The notes under the pieces: generated by a model
Database searches by the model: none
The model's input: the letters and a program-made list of their open reading frames with translations, nothing else
Told to the model about the DNA's origin: nothing
Made by a program: the position numbers and the translations under genes
Assembly (NCBI GenBank): GCA_028687645.1
Contig: JAQTZQ010000001.1
Span: 1 to 64,000 of the forward strand
Reading direction: 5' to 3'
DNA from: Rhodocyclaceae bacterium
GTDB lineage: Bacteria > Pseudomonadota > Gammaproteobacteria > Burkholderiales > Rhodocyclaceae
Length of the DNA stretch: 64,000 nucleotides
In this document: positions 20,141-51,938 of the stretch, in pieces
Layout: each line of letters starts with the position of its first letter
Position numbering within the stretch: position 1 is the stretch's first letter

Positions 20141-20983
20141 ATGAGCTACCAAGCCACAGCTTTCAAAGTGATGATTGCTTCACCGGTGGATGTGCCTGCG
20201 GAGCGTAAGGTCATCCGAGAGATGATTACCGAGTGGAACAACGTTAACGCGGACTTGCGCCGTACCGTTTTGCTTGCGGTAGGCTGGGAAACACACTCAG
20301 CACCGGAAATGGGTGAGCGCGCTCAGGCGATCATCAACAAACGCATTCTGGCTGATTGCGACCTTTTGGTAGGCGTCTTCTGGACCCGACTTGGCACTGC
20401 GACCGGCGACTACGCGAGCGGAACTGTCGAAGAAATTGAGGAACACCTTCGGGCAGGAAAGCCGGCCATGTTGTACTTCTCGAATCAGCCAGTCGAGCAG
20501 GGCAGCGTGGATCAGGCGCAGTACCAACGGTTGCTTGAATTTCGCTCATCGTGCCAATCTCGTGGTCTTCTTGAGTTCTACTCTGACTTGAGTGAATTCA
20601 GAGAAAAACTCTACCGGCAACTGCAAATCACGTTGAATAGCCATGAGTATTTCTCAACGGCGGCGATTCACGAAGCTCTGCCTCTAGCCGCCACTCTTCC
20701 TGCGTCTGCCCCCCTTTCTAAAGAAGCCGCAGTGCTGCTGACTGAGGCGGCTGCGGCTGATGGTCAGATCATCTACTTGCACATGCTTAATGGAACGTTG
20801 GTGCAAGTTGGGCAGGAGAATTATGCAGGCGACGGCGATGCTCGGTCACTGGCTCGATGGGAAGGGGCTGTCGATGAGCTAGAGCACCTTGGGTTCATTG
20901 CCGCTCAGGGCAACAAACGAGAAGTTTTTAAAGTCACCAGTGATGGTTTTGATGCAGCGGATCAAATTGCTGATTCAGCATGA
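20141..20983 (+). CDS. DUF4062 protein with C-terminal winged-helix-like region
   Basis: FKVMIASPVDVPAERKVIREMITEWN...LLAVGWETHSAPEMGERAQAIINKRILADCDLLVGVFWTRLGT. Confidence 0.8.
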   Translation: MSYQATAFKVMIASPVDVPAERKVIREMITEWNNVNADLRRTVLLAVGWETHSAPEMGERAQAIINKRILADCDLLVGVFWTRLGTATGDYASGTVEEIEEHLRAGKPAMLYFSNQPVEQGSVDQAQYQRLLEFRSSCQSRGLLEFYSDLSEFREKLYRQLQITLNSHEYFSTAAIHEALPLAATLPASAPLSKEAAVLLTEAAAADGQIIYLHMLNGTLVQVGQENYAGDGDARSLARWEGAVDELEHLGFIAAQGNKREVFKVTSDGFDAADQIADSA

Positions 20984-20987
20984 ACAG

Positions 20988-21128
20988 ATGACACGATCCG
21001 AATTGACCGCCGCACTGTCCCAGCGTTTCCCTCAACTTGTGCAAAAAGATGCCGAAATGGCTGTTAGCGAACTGCTTTTCACTATCAGTAGTGCATTAGT
21101 TGAGCAAGTTGCCGAAGCTGGTTTCTGA
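20988..21128 (+). pseudogene. Truncated ihfB-like gene (46 codons)
   Basis: MTRSELTAALSQRFPQLVQKDAEMAVSELLFTISSALVEQ parallels the intact gene at 40581 and stops before the DNA-binding arm. Confidence 0.85.
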
Positions 21129-21292: not shown

Positions 21293-22354
21293 CTATGCTA
21301 CGGTCGGCCCTGGAAGGTAATAATTCCCCATGCGATCAAGAGCCTTGGTTGCGCTCTCAAACCTTTCATCGATATGGCGACAGGTAGAGTCGATTGCCAG
21401 GTGTTCGATCCTAAGTTGTTCCGCACGATCGCGAGCCTGTTGCTTTTCTTTTCTGTCTGAAGAGCCTAGAAGCCAACGTCCCAGCGTAAACAACCCAAAA
21501 CCGAAAATTCCATCAAGTATTACCGAACCGATTCCATCAATGACAGCGTCACCTATCATGTCGGTAGCCAAATCGCCAAGCAAATCACCGCCAGCAATTG
21601 CACCAGCAGATAACGCTACCGATGTCGCAGCTTCTGAAACCGTGCGAGAGCCTTTTGCCACCCAAAATATATTTAGCGCCAGTGGTATCAGTGGAAGACC
21701 CAAGCCAAGCAAACCAAAATCATCGCTGCTGACAGCGTCCGAAAGTTGAGACTCAAGCTGCGCATCTGAAAGGTCTGAGACGCTCAACCCAGCGACGGTT
21801 CCTTGGTGCGACACGAGTTCCGATGTTGCAAGGACGTCGTATTCAGGATAGCGGTCCAGTGCAGATTCCACATACGCCACGTAATTTGTGGCCTTGAGTT
21901 GTACCAAATCCGCTACTGAACCATCAGCGTTTAAAATCTGCATATCCCAACCGGGCTGCGTAGCGCTTTCGGCAAGTTCCGCCTGTTGTCCAGGGTCGAG
22001 GTGAAATTCACCAACCCATTCGCCGTTGTTTAAACGGTCGCGGACAGATACTTCAAACAGCTTTCCTTTCCATGGCTGCAAAAGACCTTCTAAATGCTCA
22101 CCAGAATAATTGCCGACGTCTTCAATATTCAAATTGGGGAACGCTAACCGAAACGACTCTTGCAGTTCTGGTGTCAGACCTGATGGATCGAAACCGGCAT
22201 CAATATGCAGCCCCATGACAGCGGCGCTGCAGGCTGCGGCTTCGGCGAAGGTTGTGTTGCGCCCCTCCTGGAATCGTTTGACCAGGGTGTTGAAAGCTCG
22301 ACGTCCCGTGTGTTCTCGGGTCTTGTACTCAGCGTACAGATCGTCTAGTGTCAC
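21293..22354 (-). CDS. Uncharacterised protein: nuclease-like N-terminal region plus hydrophobic C-terminal helices
   Basis: LFEVSVRDRLN...GWDMQILNADGSVADLVQLKATNYVAYVESALDRYPEYDVLATSEL; then LGLGLPLIPLALNIFWVA and glycine-rich TM-like stretches. Confidence 0.6.
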   Translation of the reverse strand: MTLDDLYAEYKTREHTGRRAFNTLVKRFQEGRNTTFAEAAACSAAVMGLHIDAGFDPSGLTPELQESFRLAFPNLNIEDVGNYSGEHLEGLLQPWKGKLFEVSVRDRLNNGEWVGEFHLDPGQQAELAESATQPGWDMQILNADGSVADLVQLKATNYVAYVESALDRYPEYDVLATSELVSHQGTVAGLSVSDLSDAQLESQLSDAVSSDDFGLLGLGLPLIPLALNIFWVAKGSRTVSEAATSVALSAGAIAGGDLLGDLATDMIGDAVIDGIGSVILDGIFGFGLFTLGRWLLGSSDRKEKQQARDRAEQLRIEHLAIDSTCRHIDERFESATKALDRMGNYYLPGPTVA

Positions 22355-23313
22355 AGAACCCCCCCTTTTCCGTAGGCAAGGGCTCCTATAACGGCAAAGC
22401 CGGCAACAACGAGCGCCCCAACAATTAACCGAGATTTCTTGGCAAACTCAATTTGCTGGATTTGGTTTCGCTCAGATTCAACCTTCAGCGCTGCAAAAGC
22501 TGCATCTCCTGCAAGCTGACGCTCGGAAAGCTCATTGTAGGATGATTTCAAAAATCTCTTGTGCGCGTCCATATGGGTAGAAATTTTTTCTTCCAACTTG
22601 GCAATCGAATCATGGAAAGCATTCTGGGCGCTGGCAAGAAACTTGGCCTGCTCACCGACCATAGACTGTAACGCCAAGTGATTTTCCTTACTGGACGCTG
22701 TGATCGAGTGATCCTGTTGTTCGGAAAATTGCTTCTGTAGAACTCGCGTTTCCGACGAAAACGATTCGATTTGGTCTTTGGTGGCATCGATCAACGCCAC
22801 TATCTCTGAACGAAAGCCATCTCGTTGCCCGGCGGCCTCTGACTGGAAGCCCACAATCGCGCCAGTTTGTTGGGCAGCAAATCGATCAAGAAGAATCGTT
22901 ATTTCTGTCGAAAAGGCGGCAGTGTTGTTCTCGATAGTGCCAATCAGACCCTCGGCCTCTCCACGAAAGTCATTGTGTGCCCGTGAAAGGTTGTTCGTGG
23001 ATGTTTGAAGTGCGTCACCTGCTGAATTAATTGCATCATCTGCTTCTTGCGCAACCGACCTGACTCTCTGTACAAGAGTATCAATTTCATCAAGCACCGC
23101 CACCGCAACTTCTGCACGCGTGCGAATATCGGCCACGATCTCATCGCGCCGCCGGTTGATATCGCTTGTTACTGCGTCAACTTTCTCATGGTACTGGCCG
23201 ATGCGGTGCTTCTGCTCTTGAAGTTCTTGATGCATGCCGACAAGTACAACACCAGTCTTTTCGAGGTGCTTGTCGATTTTCTTTGTAATGTCATCGAACT
23301 GCGAGGCGCTCAC
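22351..23313 (-). CDS. Long coiled-coil protein with C-terminal TM anchor
   Basis: Heptad-like E/D/Q/A-rich sequence then KKSRLIVGALVVAGFAVIGALAYG; 4-bp overlap with next gene. Confidence 0.75.
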   Translation of the reverse strand: MSASQFDDITKKIDKHLEKTGVVLVGMHQELQEQKHRIGQYHEKVDAVTSDINRRRDEIVADIRTRAEVAVAVLDEIDTLVQRVRSVAQEADDAINSAGDALQTSTNNLSRAHNDFRGEAEGLIGTIENNTAAFSTEITILLDRFAAQQTGAIVGFQSEAAGQRDGFRSEIVALIDATKDQIESFSSETRVLQKQFSEQQDHSITASSKENHLALQSMVGEQAKFLASAQNAFHDSIAKLEEKISTHMDAHKRFLKSSYNELSERQLAGDAAFAALKVESERNQIQQIEFAKKSRLIVGALVVAGFAVIGALAYGKGGVL

Positions 23314-23381: not shown

Positions 23382-23999
23382 TTACTCGAGATCATAATCT
23401 GAAGCCGCTTCAGGCAACTCGTCGAAGCCCTGCTCAATCTCCTCAAACACTTCCCCCATATCAGGCTCAGGGATTCCCATGGCTTGCCGGAGCGCTGCTG
23501 CTGAGTGAGGCAATATTCGGATTCTGCGACGATCGCGGTCTGAACTGAACAGCACGACTGAGCGATTGCCGACCACAGTTCTCAAGCGTCGATTGACCGC
23601 ACCGACAAACGACCGCTTTAGATCATTCATATCGCGGTAAGGGCGCTCGTCACCCACCAGTTCATCAATCCCAACCCGTTCAGCAACAGCAAACAGGCGC
23701 AAGGTCTGCTGGCTCTTGTCAGCCAGGTTGCTAAGCATTTCACTCGCTTGATCAGCGGAAATACCAATCACCCTTTTCGCTGGTGCTGCATAACTAGGTT
23801 CGCCGTCATAAGACGCTAACGGTATTTCGTCGAGGGGGCCGACTTCTACAGCGTCGTGCCGCGACACAATCGGCACGCTGTTTTCGGTGCCCATCAGTAG
23901 TGTTAGCAGCTCTTGCTGGGTAGTGGGGGAAAGTCGCTGAAAGTCGCCCTGAGAGATCACCAAGTCCATATCGTCTCCTGAGTTAGTTACATGATGCAC
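23382..23999 (-). CDS. Hypothetical protein
   Basis: ORF with low-overlap context, divergent from ssb; likely start internal ([10 protein letters not shown]). Confidence 0.55.
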
Positions 24000-31548: not shown

Positions 31549-33684
31549 ATGTCAAATAAAAATAAAATTTTTAAAATTAAAAATGCCATTAATCATGTCA
31601 CGAATGATAAGACAAAGATTTATGGTTTCATTAATACCATTTTTGCGTTTGGGTTTTCATACCTGCTCGCTGTACTTCTTTACTACGTGCTTAATAGCTA
31701 TAGAGATTACGGGAGTATTGAGGCGGAAGAAGTATTTAAGCGTTTTAACGATTTAGACTGGTACTTAATATTAGCGTATTTTGCTGTTAGCATATTAATT
31801 TCCCTGTTTATAGAGTTATTCGCTTATCGTCCATTTATGCGACCGATACGTCGTGCCATAGCAAAAAAAAATGGGGATCACTTTAAATATGGGATGACTT
31901 ATATCTATGATGGTGACCAATGTAGGTTTTCCAGTTCCGATACATTTGGTTGGGGTGGCGGAAAAACAGACTTGGAATATATTAATTACATTTCAATGAT
32001 CTTGATCGGGTTTCCATTTTTAATTCTGATTCCCATTGAACATAAGATTCAGTATTTAAGGAGTCGTCAATATTTTACAAAAATCTTCTTCTTTTTGGCC
32101 GTGCAACTAAGACTAGCCATCTTTCCAAAAAATGCTGATCTCCTCATGTTTAAAGCGTGTGAGAAAATGATACTCGTGCAAGAATCCGACATTAATTACG
32201 GTAAATCGCGTTACTACTTGGCGCTGATGACTGAGAAGATCGGACGCAATCGATTTAACGCACAAGTTGATCAGGATATGTTGACTCGAACGCAGGAACT
32301 TTTGATAGAGGCCATCGATCTTGGTGTAGAGAATGCAGAGTTTCAGTTGGGAATGTTTTACCTGCAATATGCCAGCACACTTGCAGATCGGTCAGTTAAT
32401 GGCAACAAAGAGGGAGTAAGACTACTTCAGAATGTCATTTCGAAGCCGTCGAGCAACCTGGGAACTTGTAACATGTGCCGAATCGCAATTGCCAAATCAC
32501 TTTCTGACTCTGAAGATGCAGATGAACTGGAGTACGCAATAAAAATACTAGATGACTTTGATATTGGTAACAAAGAAACAGCCAAATTAGAGCGTAGTGG
32601 TTTATTTGTCAGAGACTGTTTGAAAGACAGAAGAGAAAAAAATGACGCTGCGTTTATTAAAGAGGCATTTAGGCTGACAATGATTAACCCGATGAAACAT
32701 GATTCCATACCACTTGACAAGAGAATGATTAATGCGGATTACACCTCGTTAAATGACATAAAAACAAAATTGAATCTAAAACTTGCAAATGCACGCGAGA
32801 TTGAATTGATCAAAACTCTCGAAGCCGAAAAAAGGAAGGCCACAGAAAACCTGATGGCGATGTTCTCCCATAAATTCAGGGGGCCGGTTGACAGCATTAT
32901 TTTCAACACTCAACACAAACACGATGAGCGCATTTATCTGGATGCCGCGCGAACCATGACCGGCTTGTTGGAAGTGTTCAGCATCGTTTCCACCGAACCC
33001 GAAAATTTGGCTGAGGCGATGCGAAACGACCTTGGGGGCAGTGGTTCGCCGGAAAAAACCATTCTGCGCTCCTTGAAGTTGGCTTTGATGCAGTTGCTCT
33101 CCCAGCGAAACATAAAGCGCATGTCGCGGCATTATTGGCGCCATGCCCGTCGCGGCGGCCTGGTGCCGGAGAATGTCAGTTTCAAGGACTGGGCGACCCA
33201 GTCAGAAACGACCGTGTTGGAGAAAGAAATTCAGGAAAAGCTGGAAATGGCGGTGAGCGCCCTTTCCATCGAAAACGGCGCGGTGGAGCTGTTGGCCTGG
33301 CTGCAGAGCAACCTCTTCGCAACCACGATTGAAGTCGCCGACGATAGCCAAATCCGATTTGCTGAGTATGGGCGTAAAGAGGCCTTGCTGATCACCATCA
33401 TGACTGAAGTGCTGGTCAATGCCATCAAACACACGGATGTCACATCTAGCCAGCCATTGAGCATAAGCTGGAAAGAAGAAGATCAAGCACTGGTGTTTGA
33501 ATGTACCAACCCGAGTAGCCGGGAATCGCGCAGTGGTGTAAGCCGTGGCAGTGGCAAAGGCCATCTGTTTTTGAAGACACTGCTGGATAAAATGCAGGGT
33601 GAATTCAAACCTGATGTGTATAGAGATTTATCTTCGGTTCATATAACCATGCCGTATGATTTGCTTAAAGGAGCTGCAAAGTGA
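31549..33684 (+). CDS. Membrane histidine kinase-like protein with helical-repeat linker
   Basis: Two N-terminal TM helices; H-box-like MFSHKFRGPVDSIIFN; N-box MTEVLVNAIKHT; G-box SGKGHLFLKTLLDKMQG. Confidence 0.8.
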   Translation: MSNKNKIFKIKNAINHVTNDKTKIYGFINTIFAFGFSYLLAVLLYYVLNSYRDYGSIEAEEVFKRFNDLDWYLILAYFAVSILISLFIELFAYRPFMRPIRRAIAKKNGDHFKYGMTYIYDGDQCRFSSSDTFGWGGGKTDLEYINYISMILIGFPFLILIPIEHKIQYLRSRQYFTKIFFFLAVQLRLAIFPKNADLLMFKACEKMILVQESDINYGKSRYYLALMTEKIGRNRFNAQVDQDMLTRTQELLIEAIDLGVENAEFQLGMFYLQYASTLADRSVNGNKEGVRLLQNVISKPSSNLGTCNMCRIAIAKSLSDSEDADELEYAIKILDDFDIGNKETAKLERSGLFVRDCLKDRREKNDAAFIKEAFRLTMINPMKHDSIPLDKRMINADYTSLNDIKTKLNLKLANAREIELIKTLEAEKRKATENLMAMFSHKFRGPVDSIIFNTQHKHDERIYLDAARTMTGLLEVFSIVSTEPENLAEAMRNDLGGSGSPEKTILRSLKLALMQLLSQRNIKRMSRHYWRHARRGGLVPENVSFKDWATQSETTVLEKEIQEKLEMAVSALSIENGAVELLAWLQSNLFATTIEVADDSQIRFAEYGRKEALLITIMTEVLVNAIKHTDVTSSQPLSISWKEEDQALVFECTNPSSRESRSGVSRGSGKGHLFLKTLLDKMQGEFKPDVYRDLSSVHITMPYDLLKGAAK

Positions 33685-35054
33685 GTGCATTTTTATGGGT
33701 AGAGGATTTTGAAGGCGGGCAATATCGCGAGTTTGCCTTCAAGTTGTTTGGCGAAGCATTAGGTATTCCAGCCCATGACTTTTCAGATACAGAAACGGGT
33801 TTGAAGCAGCTATTGAAGAAAAACGATATTTATCTGGCGACTAATTTTGCTGATGGGCTCCGATTTATCAACGATGAATCGGAGCGTAAAAGAATTGATT
33901 ATGTGGTTCTGGATATTGATTTGGCACTCATGGGGCCAGACATCTCAGATGATGAACCGCTTATCCGACCCGTGCTGGAGAGCTGGTACAACTACAAGCC
34001 AGCCGATGCCAACGAGGAAGAATCATTCAATCGAGCTTGTGATGAACTGAAACGCGTCGCCGGTTATCATTTATATGTTGATCTGGTTGTAAATCTACGC
34101 TTTCCGCGTGACCGCATATTGTTTTGTTCAAATCATGGCGGCTACCTCAAGGCCATTCAGGATAGTTTCAACGGGGCAAAAATCAAGCCGCCAGCAGTGC
34201 TCACCAAATCCGATCCTGCCTTGAGCCATGAAGTAAGTGCTTTTTACGCTGATGAATATAGCCATGTTCGGCGCATCATCCTTGCTATTTGCGATGAACT
34301 GTCAGATGCGCTTCGATTCAAACAAGCCGAATTTACTATGGCAAAAGTTTTCAAAAATTCCGAGGACACGCTTAAAGCAACCGATGGCGCGTATTTTCTC
34401 GGTGTTTTGCCCCATCTTTTGCCGGCTTATCTCAATGACGATACTGAAATTCGATTGGTATATCGGCAGCTTGTCCGCGCCTTGACGCAAGAGTTTGTTG
34501 ATAAGGTGGATTACGAAGGCATGCCGAAAAACAAGAAGCCATTTGTCAGAGTGCTCCATACCATAAGAAACTGGACAAGCCACGACAGCAGGGCACTAAA
34601 TAATCTGGACGCCAGTGATGTGGCATATATATTTTACCTTTTCATTCAGACGGGATTTTCGATCAAGACGACAGTCATCGAATCTGTATTGGGTGATCTT
34701 TTGAACATTATCGGGCGTCACGGAGAAATAGATCACGAACTTCTCAACAGAGCAATCATCAATTCGATTGAAGATGTTTCACAACGAGGTGATGCTTTGT
34801 CAGATGAGGCAAAGAGCATTTTCTATCAAGAAAGAACGCCCTTTGGACTGAAAGTAAATTTACTTTCCCAAAATTCCTGTTTGTTCCCGGGTGAGCAAAA
34901 AAAATTCATTTATCAAATATTTTGGCACAACATTGTGACTCTGAATGACACAAATAGCTTGTCACCCCAATCGACCTTCTTCAGCAATGACGGCGCTTAC
35001 GCCGCTATAAAACAGTTGTCGCATAGAATCTTCAATAAGTCTTTTGTGGTGTGA
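33681..35054 (+). CDS. Receiver-like domain protein with unknown C-terminal domain
   Basis: FLWVEDFEGG (acidic pair), IDYVVLDIDLAL (phospho-Asp), ILFCSNHGG, PAVLTKSD; 4-bp overlap with kinase. Confidence 0.7.
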   Translation: MSAFLWVEDFEGGQYREFAFKLFGEALGIPAHDFSDTETGLKQLLKKNDIYLATNFADGLRFINDESERKRIDYVVLDIDLALMGPDISDDEPLIRPVLESWYNYKPADANEEESFNRACDELKRVAGYHLYVDLVVNLRFPRDRILFCSNHGGYLKAIQDSFNGAKIKPPAVLTKSDPALSHEVSAFYADEYSHVRRIILAICDELSDALRFKQAEFTMAKVFKNSEDTLKATDGAYFLGVLPHLLPAYLNDDTEIRLVYRQLVRALTQEFVDKVDYEGMPKNKKPFVRVLHTIRNWTSHDSRALNNLDASDVAYIFYLFIQTGFSIKTTVIESVLGDLLNIIGRHGEIDHELLNRAIINSIEDVSQRGDALSDEAKSIFYQERTPFGLKVNLLSQNSCLFPGEQKKFIYQIFWHNIVTLNDTNSLSPQSTFFSNDGAYAAIKQLSHRIFNKSFVV

Positions 35055-40580: not shown

Positions 40581-40877
40581 ATGACTCGATCTGAACTTGT
40601 AGCTTCTTTGGCGCAGCGTTTCCCTCAGCTTGTTCTAAAAGATGCCGAAATGGCCGTCACCGAGATACTTGGTGCAATTGCGGCAGCGTTAACGGCAGGA
40701 AATCGAGTTGAAATTCGTGGTTTCGGCTCTTTTGCCCTGAACTACCGGCCACCACGCACCGGCAGGAACCCGAAAACTGGGGAAAAAGTGGCTGTGCCAG
40801 GCAAATATGTGCCTCACTTCAAGGCAGGTAAGGAGCTGCGCGAATTGGTGATTGCAGCTTCAGTTAGCGTCAACTAG
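40581..40877 (+). CDS. ihfB: IHF beta-like DNA-bending protein
   Basis: [30 protein letters not shown]...[31 protein letters not shown]. Confidence 0.92.
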
Positions 40878-50576: not shown

Positions 50577-51938
50577 TCAACTGGATGTGTTAACTGGCAA
50601 TTTGTTATATGGGTCTGTCGCCACAAATTTCACACCGGCTTGTTCCAGCACCCACGCTTCGATCTTGGTATGCCACATCCGCAGCAGGTCAAGGGGGCGC
50701 ACACGGTAATGTTTCTCTGCTGTCGCACTGGGTTTGTGCCCCATGATTTGGGCTACGATGCCTGTTGGCACCTCCACCCATTCGGCCAGCGTACCAAAAG
50801 AGCGACGCAAGCCATGAAGTGATAGAGAGGGTAATCCAGCGGCGGCTAGAGCCTTGTTATGAGCAATCCTCGGTTCCTGAAGCCTCCCTGATGCAGCCGT
50901 CAGGCTACTGAACACCCACGGATTAGGGGCATCTTTGCCATCAACTATCATTTTCCGGCGAGGCAAACTGCTCAACAACGATGCAACGTATGGGGTGAGT
51001 GGAATCGTCCGTTCCCCCTCCACTTTGTCTCGTATAGCGATTCCTCCCCACTGAAAATCAATGTCAGACCATTGCAGTCGTGCCATCTCTTCACGACGGG
51101 CACCGGTCAGTAGCAGTGCCTGTAAGTATGCAGAATGAACAGGGTTGAACAACTTCCGAACTTGCTCGAACCATAGTGGCAATTGTTCGCGTTGCAGGCA
51201 ATCATCTTTTGATGCTTTTTTTGGCAACTCATCCCGAACACTACGCGATGCACAAACATCGGCATTCACATGGTGCTTGTAGTCCTCGTGGTCGGCTGAC
51301 CAATTCATGAACGCACGTAACAACCGAAATCCTAATGCCGTATTTGTCGGGCGCTTGACCACTTCATCACGCATCCATTGCGAGACCATTGCCGAGTCGA
51401 TCTTGTTGAGCGGCAAACGGAGCAAGGCGTAAAGCGCACCTGGCTCCGTCTTGTCGCCCTGCCCCTTTTTTCTGCCACGCGATTTAGGCTTGCCACCGGG
51501 GTCAGAGAAGCGTAAGTGATCTCTGTAGTTACGCTCTCCCCACTTTGAGCGACGTGCCTCGAGGTAGATGTTCCAGGCTTCTATTGCCGGAGCCTCCGAC
51601 CTAATCGAGTCGACACGCTTTTTCTCCGTGGCGGCGACACGCTCTTTTTTCTCTTGGCGGGGGTCTAATCCTTGGTCGATTTGCTTTTGAAGTGTGCGCG
51701 CTTCTTCTCTCGCCTTGTCGATGCCCCATGCGCGTACATCCCCAATAGTTATCCGAACATTTTGGCCGGAGAGTAATTTGCCTTGGAAAACGAACGCCTT
51801 GGTTCCCTCTGGATTACGCTTACCAGGTGCTGTCGCACGAACAGCCAGACCGGGAGTGTCGGAATCCCACAGAAATGCTTGACCGTCTTCGGCAGTGAAG
51901 TTCCGGATGCGACCAGCGGTTAGATTGACACGAGCCAT
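50577..51938 (-). CDS. int: Tyrosine-type site-specific integrase
   Basis: Catalytic R (TGARREEMARL), HGLRR, MGHKPSATAEKHY; adjacent to attR. Confidence 0.95.
   Translation of the reverse strand: MARVNLTAGRIRNFTAEDGQAFLWDSDTPGLAVRATAPGKRNPEGTKAFVFQGKLLSGQNVRITIGDVRAWGIDKAREEARTLQKQIDQGLDPRQEKKERVAATEKKRVDSIRSEAPAIEAWNIYLEARRSKWGERNYRDHLRFSDPGGKPKSRGRKKGQGDKTEPGALYALLRLPLNKIDSAMVSQWMRDEVVKRPTNTALGFRLLRAFMNWSADHEDYKHHVNADVCASRSVRDELPKKASKDDCLQREQLPLWFEQVRKLFNPVHSAYLQALLLTGARREEMARLQWSDIDFQWGGIAIRDKVEGERTIPLTPYVASLLSSLPRRKMIVDGKDAPNPWVFSSLTAASGRLQEPRIAHNKALAAAGLPSLSLHGLRRSFGTLAEWVEVPTGIVAQIMGHKPSATAEKHYRVRPLDLLRMWHTKIEAWVLEQAGVKFVATDPYNKLPVNTSS

Follow-up and report, generated by a model that had tools for sequence, protein, structure and literature searches.

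The locus examined here raises the question of whether two overlapping genes of a Rhodocyclaceae bacterium, one encoding a coiled-coil protein and the other a nuclease-like protein, belong together, and if so what they might do for their carrier. We refer throughout to the whole 64,000-nucleotide stretch that was analysed (contig JAQTZQ010000001.1, positions 1 to 64,000) as the window.

The gene pair and its surroundings

Gene A (22351-23313, minus strand) encodes a 320-aa helical rod with a C-terminal membrane anchor, a putative tether, and gene B (21293-22354, minus strand) encodes a 353-aa protein in which a nuclease-like core is followed by hydrophobic C-terminal helices; both open reading frames begin with GTG. 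As described in the initial annotation, the stop of A and the start of B overlap by 4 bp (22351-22354, minus strand, from the reading frame coordinates and the sequence), and the two genes are likely translationally coupled through this overlap. A GAGG can be read directly 5′ of the GTG start of gene A, while promoter and terminator scans near the pair returned nothing above chance.

The pair adjoins a Kiwa pair on the opposite strand (KwaB, E 4e-98; KwaA, E 5e-44; PADLOC), and the other flanking genes encode a DUF4062 protein and, on the opposite strand, a type III restriction gene product. The match of the DUF4062 protein (20141-20983) to the PADLOC candidate PDC-S60 (E 3e-26) is confined to the protein's first 166 residues, against a model length of 906 positions. 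Gene B is single-copy in its own genome and was not seen in any of 60 related ones, a patchy distribution, and is therefore an accessory gene. Beside the pair lies an HU-like gene fragment (20988-21098) that shares 73% identity across 37 aa with an intact HU gene (40581-40877), which matches the previously suspected scar of truncated genes and is a sign of past rearrangement or insertion; we count the accompanying suggestion of a separately acquired cassette as supported. A phage-type integrase gene is found within the window at 50577-51938.

Two further genes of the window deserve mention. An orphan gene of 205 aa (23382-23999) lies 68 bp upstream of A on the same strand and has no Pfam, NCBIfam or PADLOC match; we considered it as a third component and rejected it, having found no relative in A-B loci, plasmids or the 60 related genomes. 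The protein encoded at 33681-35054, for which no Pfam family was found, begins much like the protein encoded at L044:4929-6275 (VSAFLWVEDFEGGQYREF..., compared by eye only). Both are encoded directly after a large gene, and the latter adjoins a relative of B.

The predicted nuclease core of B

Searches with gene B against Pfam, NCBIfam and PHROGs gave no convincing match, Pfam scans of 31 B cores assigned no family, and PDB sequence searches with B and with a B-core profile returned chance matches only. A match was obtained to PDC-M72B of PADLOC (E 3.8e-10, over B residues 86-210), the core of B belonging to this domain family of an untested candidate system, PDC-M72. The earlier statement that no known system could be recognised is thereby qualified: the core of B is covered by the PADLOC candidate, although the partner differs. 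As a search model, PDC-M72A behaves in the manner of ankyrin-like repeat proteins, in contrast to the coiled-coil, tail-anchored partner seen here. No PDC-M72A partner was found near the window pair, the matches to that model in this genome lying on other contigs, and since this partner is missing, the pair is not PDC-M72 as PADLOC defines it.

Further relatives of B were gathered with a profile search and by scanning one genome collection. Among phages, plasmids, E. coli and viral contigs, similar sequences were looked for without success, apart from one distant plasmid protein. The core spans residues 62-209 (21728-22171, minus strand), as judged from conserved residues in 31 homologues and an AlphaFold2 model, and contains E101 (22052-22054), D137 (21944-21946) and then Q152-L-K154-A (Q152, 21899-21901; K154, 21893-21895). 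In the alignment of 31 sequences, G90, G97, F100, E101, N109, L119, A128, W136, D137, K154 and A155 are invariant, and Q152 is at least 90% conserved, being S in the two Paenibacillus sequences. The putative nuclease residues E101, D137 and K154 are thus not variable among these homologues, a point on which the initial annotation had made its interpretation depend. In a wider set of 15 sequences the invariant residues are G90, K96, G97, D137, K154 and E179, with E101 replaced by D in one sequence and Q152 by S in two.

The AlphaFold2 model of B residues 51-212 has a pLDDT of 91.6 and a pTM of 0.88. It consists of a helix at 85-109 carrying E101, a strand at 124-127, a strand at 138-141 preceded by D137, a strand at 147-154 ending in QLK, a helix at 159-168 and a strand at 173-176. 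Both the order of these elements and the positions of the residues fit the alpha-beta-beta-beta-alpha-beta core of PD-(D/E)XK enzymes with D and (D/E/Q)xK, in line with the nuclease-like motif reported at the outset. Foldseek with the B core gave no match reaching E 0.001, the best PDB row being YaeQ (E 0.016, probability 0.84, not significant). Among the top 20 PDB rows, none of them significant, 17 are YaeQ, Ecl18kI, DdmD, PA endonuclease or DrdV, all of which we take to be members of the PD-(D/E)XK superfamily, and several of the viral matches, likewise below significance, are named nucleases. From the model and the conserved residues, we consider a PD-(D/E)XK fold for the core very probable. 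Mrr-like PD-(D/E)XK enzymes have a QxK active site, and B resembles them in its helix with E, followed by D and then QxK in the right strands, but it differs in having no sequence match to a Pfam nuclease family and in possessing hydrophobic C-terminal helices and a conserved partner.

The hydrophobic helices expected after the nuclease-like stretch were located by hydropathy at residues 215-233 and 266-296 (21467-21712, minus strand), a part of B where model confidence is low, and they probably provide additional membrane contact. Activity of B is not certain, because the usual acid of the ExK motif is Q here, and S in some relatives. It is conceivable on this account that the core is a dead nuclease fold that senses or binds nucleic acid, the C-terminal helices being an effector that disturbs the membrane; the presence of two hydrophobic segments in most short-B proteins would agree with such a role. 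We regard this as quite improbable, given that the invariant E101, D137 and K154 would be needless in a dead enzyme and that, across the 31 homologues, conservation is much lower in the C-terminal part than in the core.

Gene A and the arrangements of B across phyla

Our collection comprises 30 B loci. In 19 of them B is short and lacks a long N-terminal extension, and in the other 11 it carries a fused one. The co-conservation on which the case for a pair had been staked holds, with an A gene directly upstream of B on the same strand in 18 of the 18 short-B loci with enough upstream sequence; at the nineteenth (L035), near a contig edge, only a short open reading frame ending in a transmembrane segment is seen upstream. 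The two-gene form is found in five phyla (Pseudomonadota, Bacillota, Chloroflexota, Nitrospirota and Armatimonadota), several of its carriers being draft metagenome bins, while Dechloromonas and two Paenibacillus carriers are isolates. Between the two Paenibacillus species, both genes are under purifying selection (dN/dS 0.28 for A and 0.23 for B). With core residues strictly or almost strictly conserved in the 31 homologues, which come from several phyla, and with the pair itself recurring, the observation goes beyond chance, and we hold it virtually certain that A and B form a real co-conserved module.

Gene A of the window has the features of a coiled coil with a C-terminal membrane anchor, as first proposed: residues 1-290 contain no proline, and a single strong hydrophobic segment at 296-312 (22378-22428, minus strand; hydropathy), preceded by three Lys/Arg residues and followed by an 8-residue tail, would serve as a transmembrane tail anchor. 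Like the window protein, 10 of 18 A relatives have a single C-terminal transmembrane segment, preceded by Lys/Arg and followed by a tail of 3-8 residues; the other 8 are without any transmembrane segment, which counts against the membrane-tether reading set out below. Across relatives, A ranges from 78 to 433 aa in length, and the conserved part is a short N-terminal motif around V-L-x-G-(M/L)-H-x-(E/D), corresponding in the window to residues 8-40 (...VVLVGMHQEL...; 23194-23292, minus strand; alignment and motif model), which we propose as the docking site for B on the basis of sequence conservation. The initial annotation had cast A as a sensor-tether; with so variable a length and this lone motif, a docking and tether element fits better than a sensor.

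A motif model built without the window recovers the window A at E 7.6e-6 among 2236 open reading frames. When whole clusters were left out, the A genes of the omitted clusters were found at E 2.3e-4 to 1.7e-11, with no non-A frame under E 0.29 among the 2236, the only weak subgroup being L037, L038, L040 and L042, in which the best member reached 9.7e-4 and L040 was missed. By these leave-cluster-out models, the A proteins are one family. Gene A has no specific match to any PADLOC family and none to PDC-M72A, and a PDB sequence search with A gave chance-level matches only. We rejected an identification of A with ZorA or Mce proteins, the similarity being of the ordinary coiled-coil kind.

A third gene of about 316-320 aa lies immediately downstream of B, in the same orientation, at three loci (L037:8896-9846, L038:8956-9906 and L040:8966-9928) and may be a third component in that subgroup; the L037 copy (as L024) has weak zinc-ribbon matches.

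Other relatives of B occur in other arrangements. The 11 loci in which B carries a fused N-terminal extension have no A and form one clade (support 100/99). A type I restriction R subunit lies near three of these single-gene relatives (L041, L047 and L052), and the gene directly after B in L047 matches the PDC-M72A repeat model. A more distant relative (L017) has a DUF697-like membrane protein as its partner, with L019, L026 and L044 appearing similar by eye, and in other distant relatives a membrane segment related to PDC-M09A is either separate (L018) or fused (L002).

A proposed membrane-held nuclease and its possible role

The 137 proteins encoded by up to three genes to either side of B in the 30 loci matched 101 PADLOC families (E 1e-15), against 3 for 132 control proteins taken far from the loci on eleven of these contigs, with genes called alike by a simple open reading frame picker in both sets; these figures are not protein counts, because one protein may be matched by several families. 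In six loci (L031, L041, L047, L052, L053 and L057) we confirmed individual defence proteins near B, and in L029 gene A is adjoined by an N-terminal HsdR fragment, though a defence gene does not lie within three genes at every locus. Because the pair recurs in at least five phyla and some copies lie beside known defence genes, it is probably an uncharacterised immune system.

Our preferred reading, to which we assign a probability of about 50%, is that A and B work as a module of two genes, retaining a PD-(D/E)XK-type nuclease at the inner membrane, probably as protection against incoming phage or other foreign DNA. The C-terminal segment of A would sit in the membrane with the coiled coil reaching into the cytoplasm as a tail-anchored rod, the conserved N-terminal motif would dock onto B, and B would bring the nuclease core, its hydrophobic C-terminal helices adding membrane contact. 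Tethering would hold the nuclease clear of the chromosome and at the site where foreign DNA comes in, by a logic analogous to that of SNIPE. We infer that A binds B, that B is active as a nuclease, that the pair serves in defence and that cutting takes place where DNA enters; of the parts of this reading, membrane tethering appears highly probable and a defence role likely, while direct cutting of DNA at the entry point is put forward tentatively.

SNIPE (PD-lambda-1), a membrane-bound nuclease, is an experimentally tested precedent (PMC13190303). In its membrane-anchored form it cleaves phage DNA as this is injected, whereas a form lacking the membrane segment attacks host DNA and is toxic (PMC13190303). 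The likeness to the A-B pair lies in the proposed logic, by which an elongated, anchored protein fixes a nuclease to the inner membrane. SNIPE, however, combines DUF4041 and a GIY-YIG nuclease in a single protein, and the present pair has a separate tether and a PD-(D/E)XK-like nuclease. Neither A nor B has a Pfam match to DUF4041 or GIY-YIG, and by domain content the pair is not SNIPE and is unrelated to it in sequence. It would seem to be a membrane-tethered nuclease of the same kind, built of unrelated parts. Zorya and Kiwa are likewise membrane-linked defence systems, but the pair is a gene pair separate from the adjoining Kiwa and on the opposite strand from it. As for Zorya, the coiled-coil stretch of A scores E 0.003 or weaker against ZorA models, as any coiled coil does, and A has one transmembrane segment, unlike ZorA with its MotA/ExbB-like channel part and accompanying ZorB. 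A literature search, in which preprints and most subscription journals were out of scope, found no paper on the A-B pair or PDC-M72.

The same anatomy would also suit abortive infection, in which A holds B inactive at the membrane until a phage-caused change, be it in the membrane, in A or through a phage protein, frees or activates B to cut host DNA or RNA, killing or halting the infected cell. Membrane-held effectors are common in abortive systems, and AbiE genes occur in the neighbourhood; A, however, has no recognisable sensor domain, the docking-like motif alone being conserved, and we consider abortive infection unlikely. A further explanation concerns competition between mobile elements, the pair acting against co-entering plasmids, satellites or phages to the benefit of its carrier. 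At L036 the pair is flanked on one side by a Prim-Pol/DUF3987 module and on the other by a gene for a terminase small subunit, within an element that bears an integrase (named from sequence by eye); terminase small subunit genes are also present at L029 and L031, and the window has its own integrase gene. Other copies, in contrast, adjoin ordinary restriction or AbiE genes, and we judge this explanation improbable; it overlaps with a membrane-held nuclease for defence, because defence genes are common cargo of such elements. The terminase small subunit genes adjoin the pair singly (L029:9540-9968, L031:9327-9788 and L036:9484-10101), which suggests satellite-like or prophage-derived carrier elements.

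A broader and more speculative proposal is that the pair is a two-gene, unrelated counterpart of SNIPE, one of a modular class of nucleases tethered to the membrane, spread over at least five phyla, that tell foreign DNA by its site of entry. With tether and nuclease in separate genes, tethers of different length or type could therefore be exchanged around one nuclease core, such as a tail-anchored rod, a soluble coiled coil, a fused extension or a DUF697-like membrane partner. If this is true, holding a nuclease at the membrane as a means of self/foreign discrimination would have arisen independently of SNIPE and would be more general than one family, the nuclease would be predicted to be toxic once its tether is removed, and an untested PADLOC candidate domain would gain a function, with a widespread partner of that domain named.
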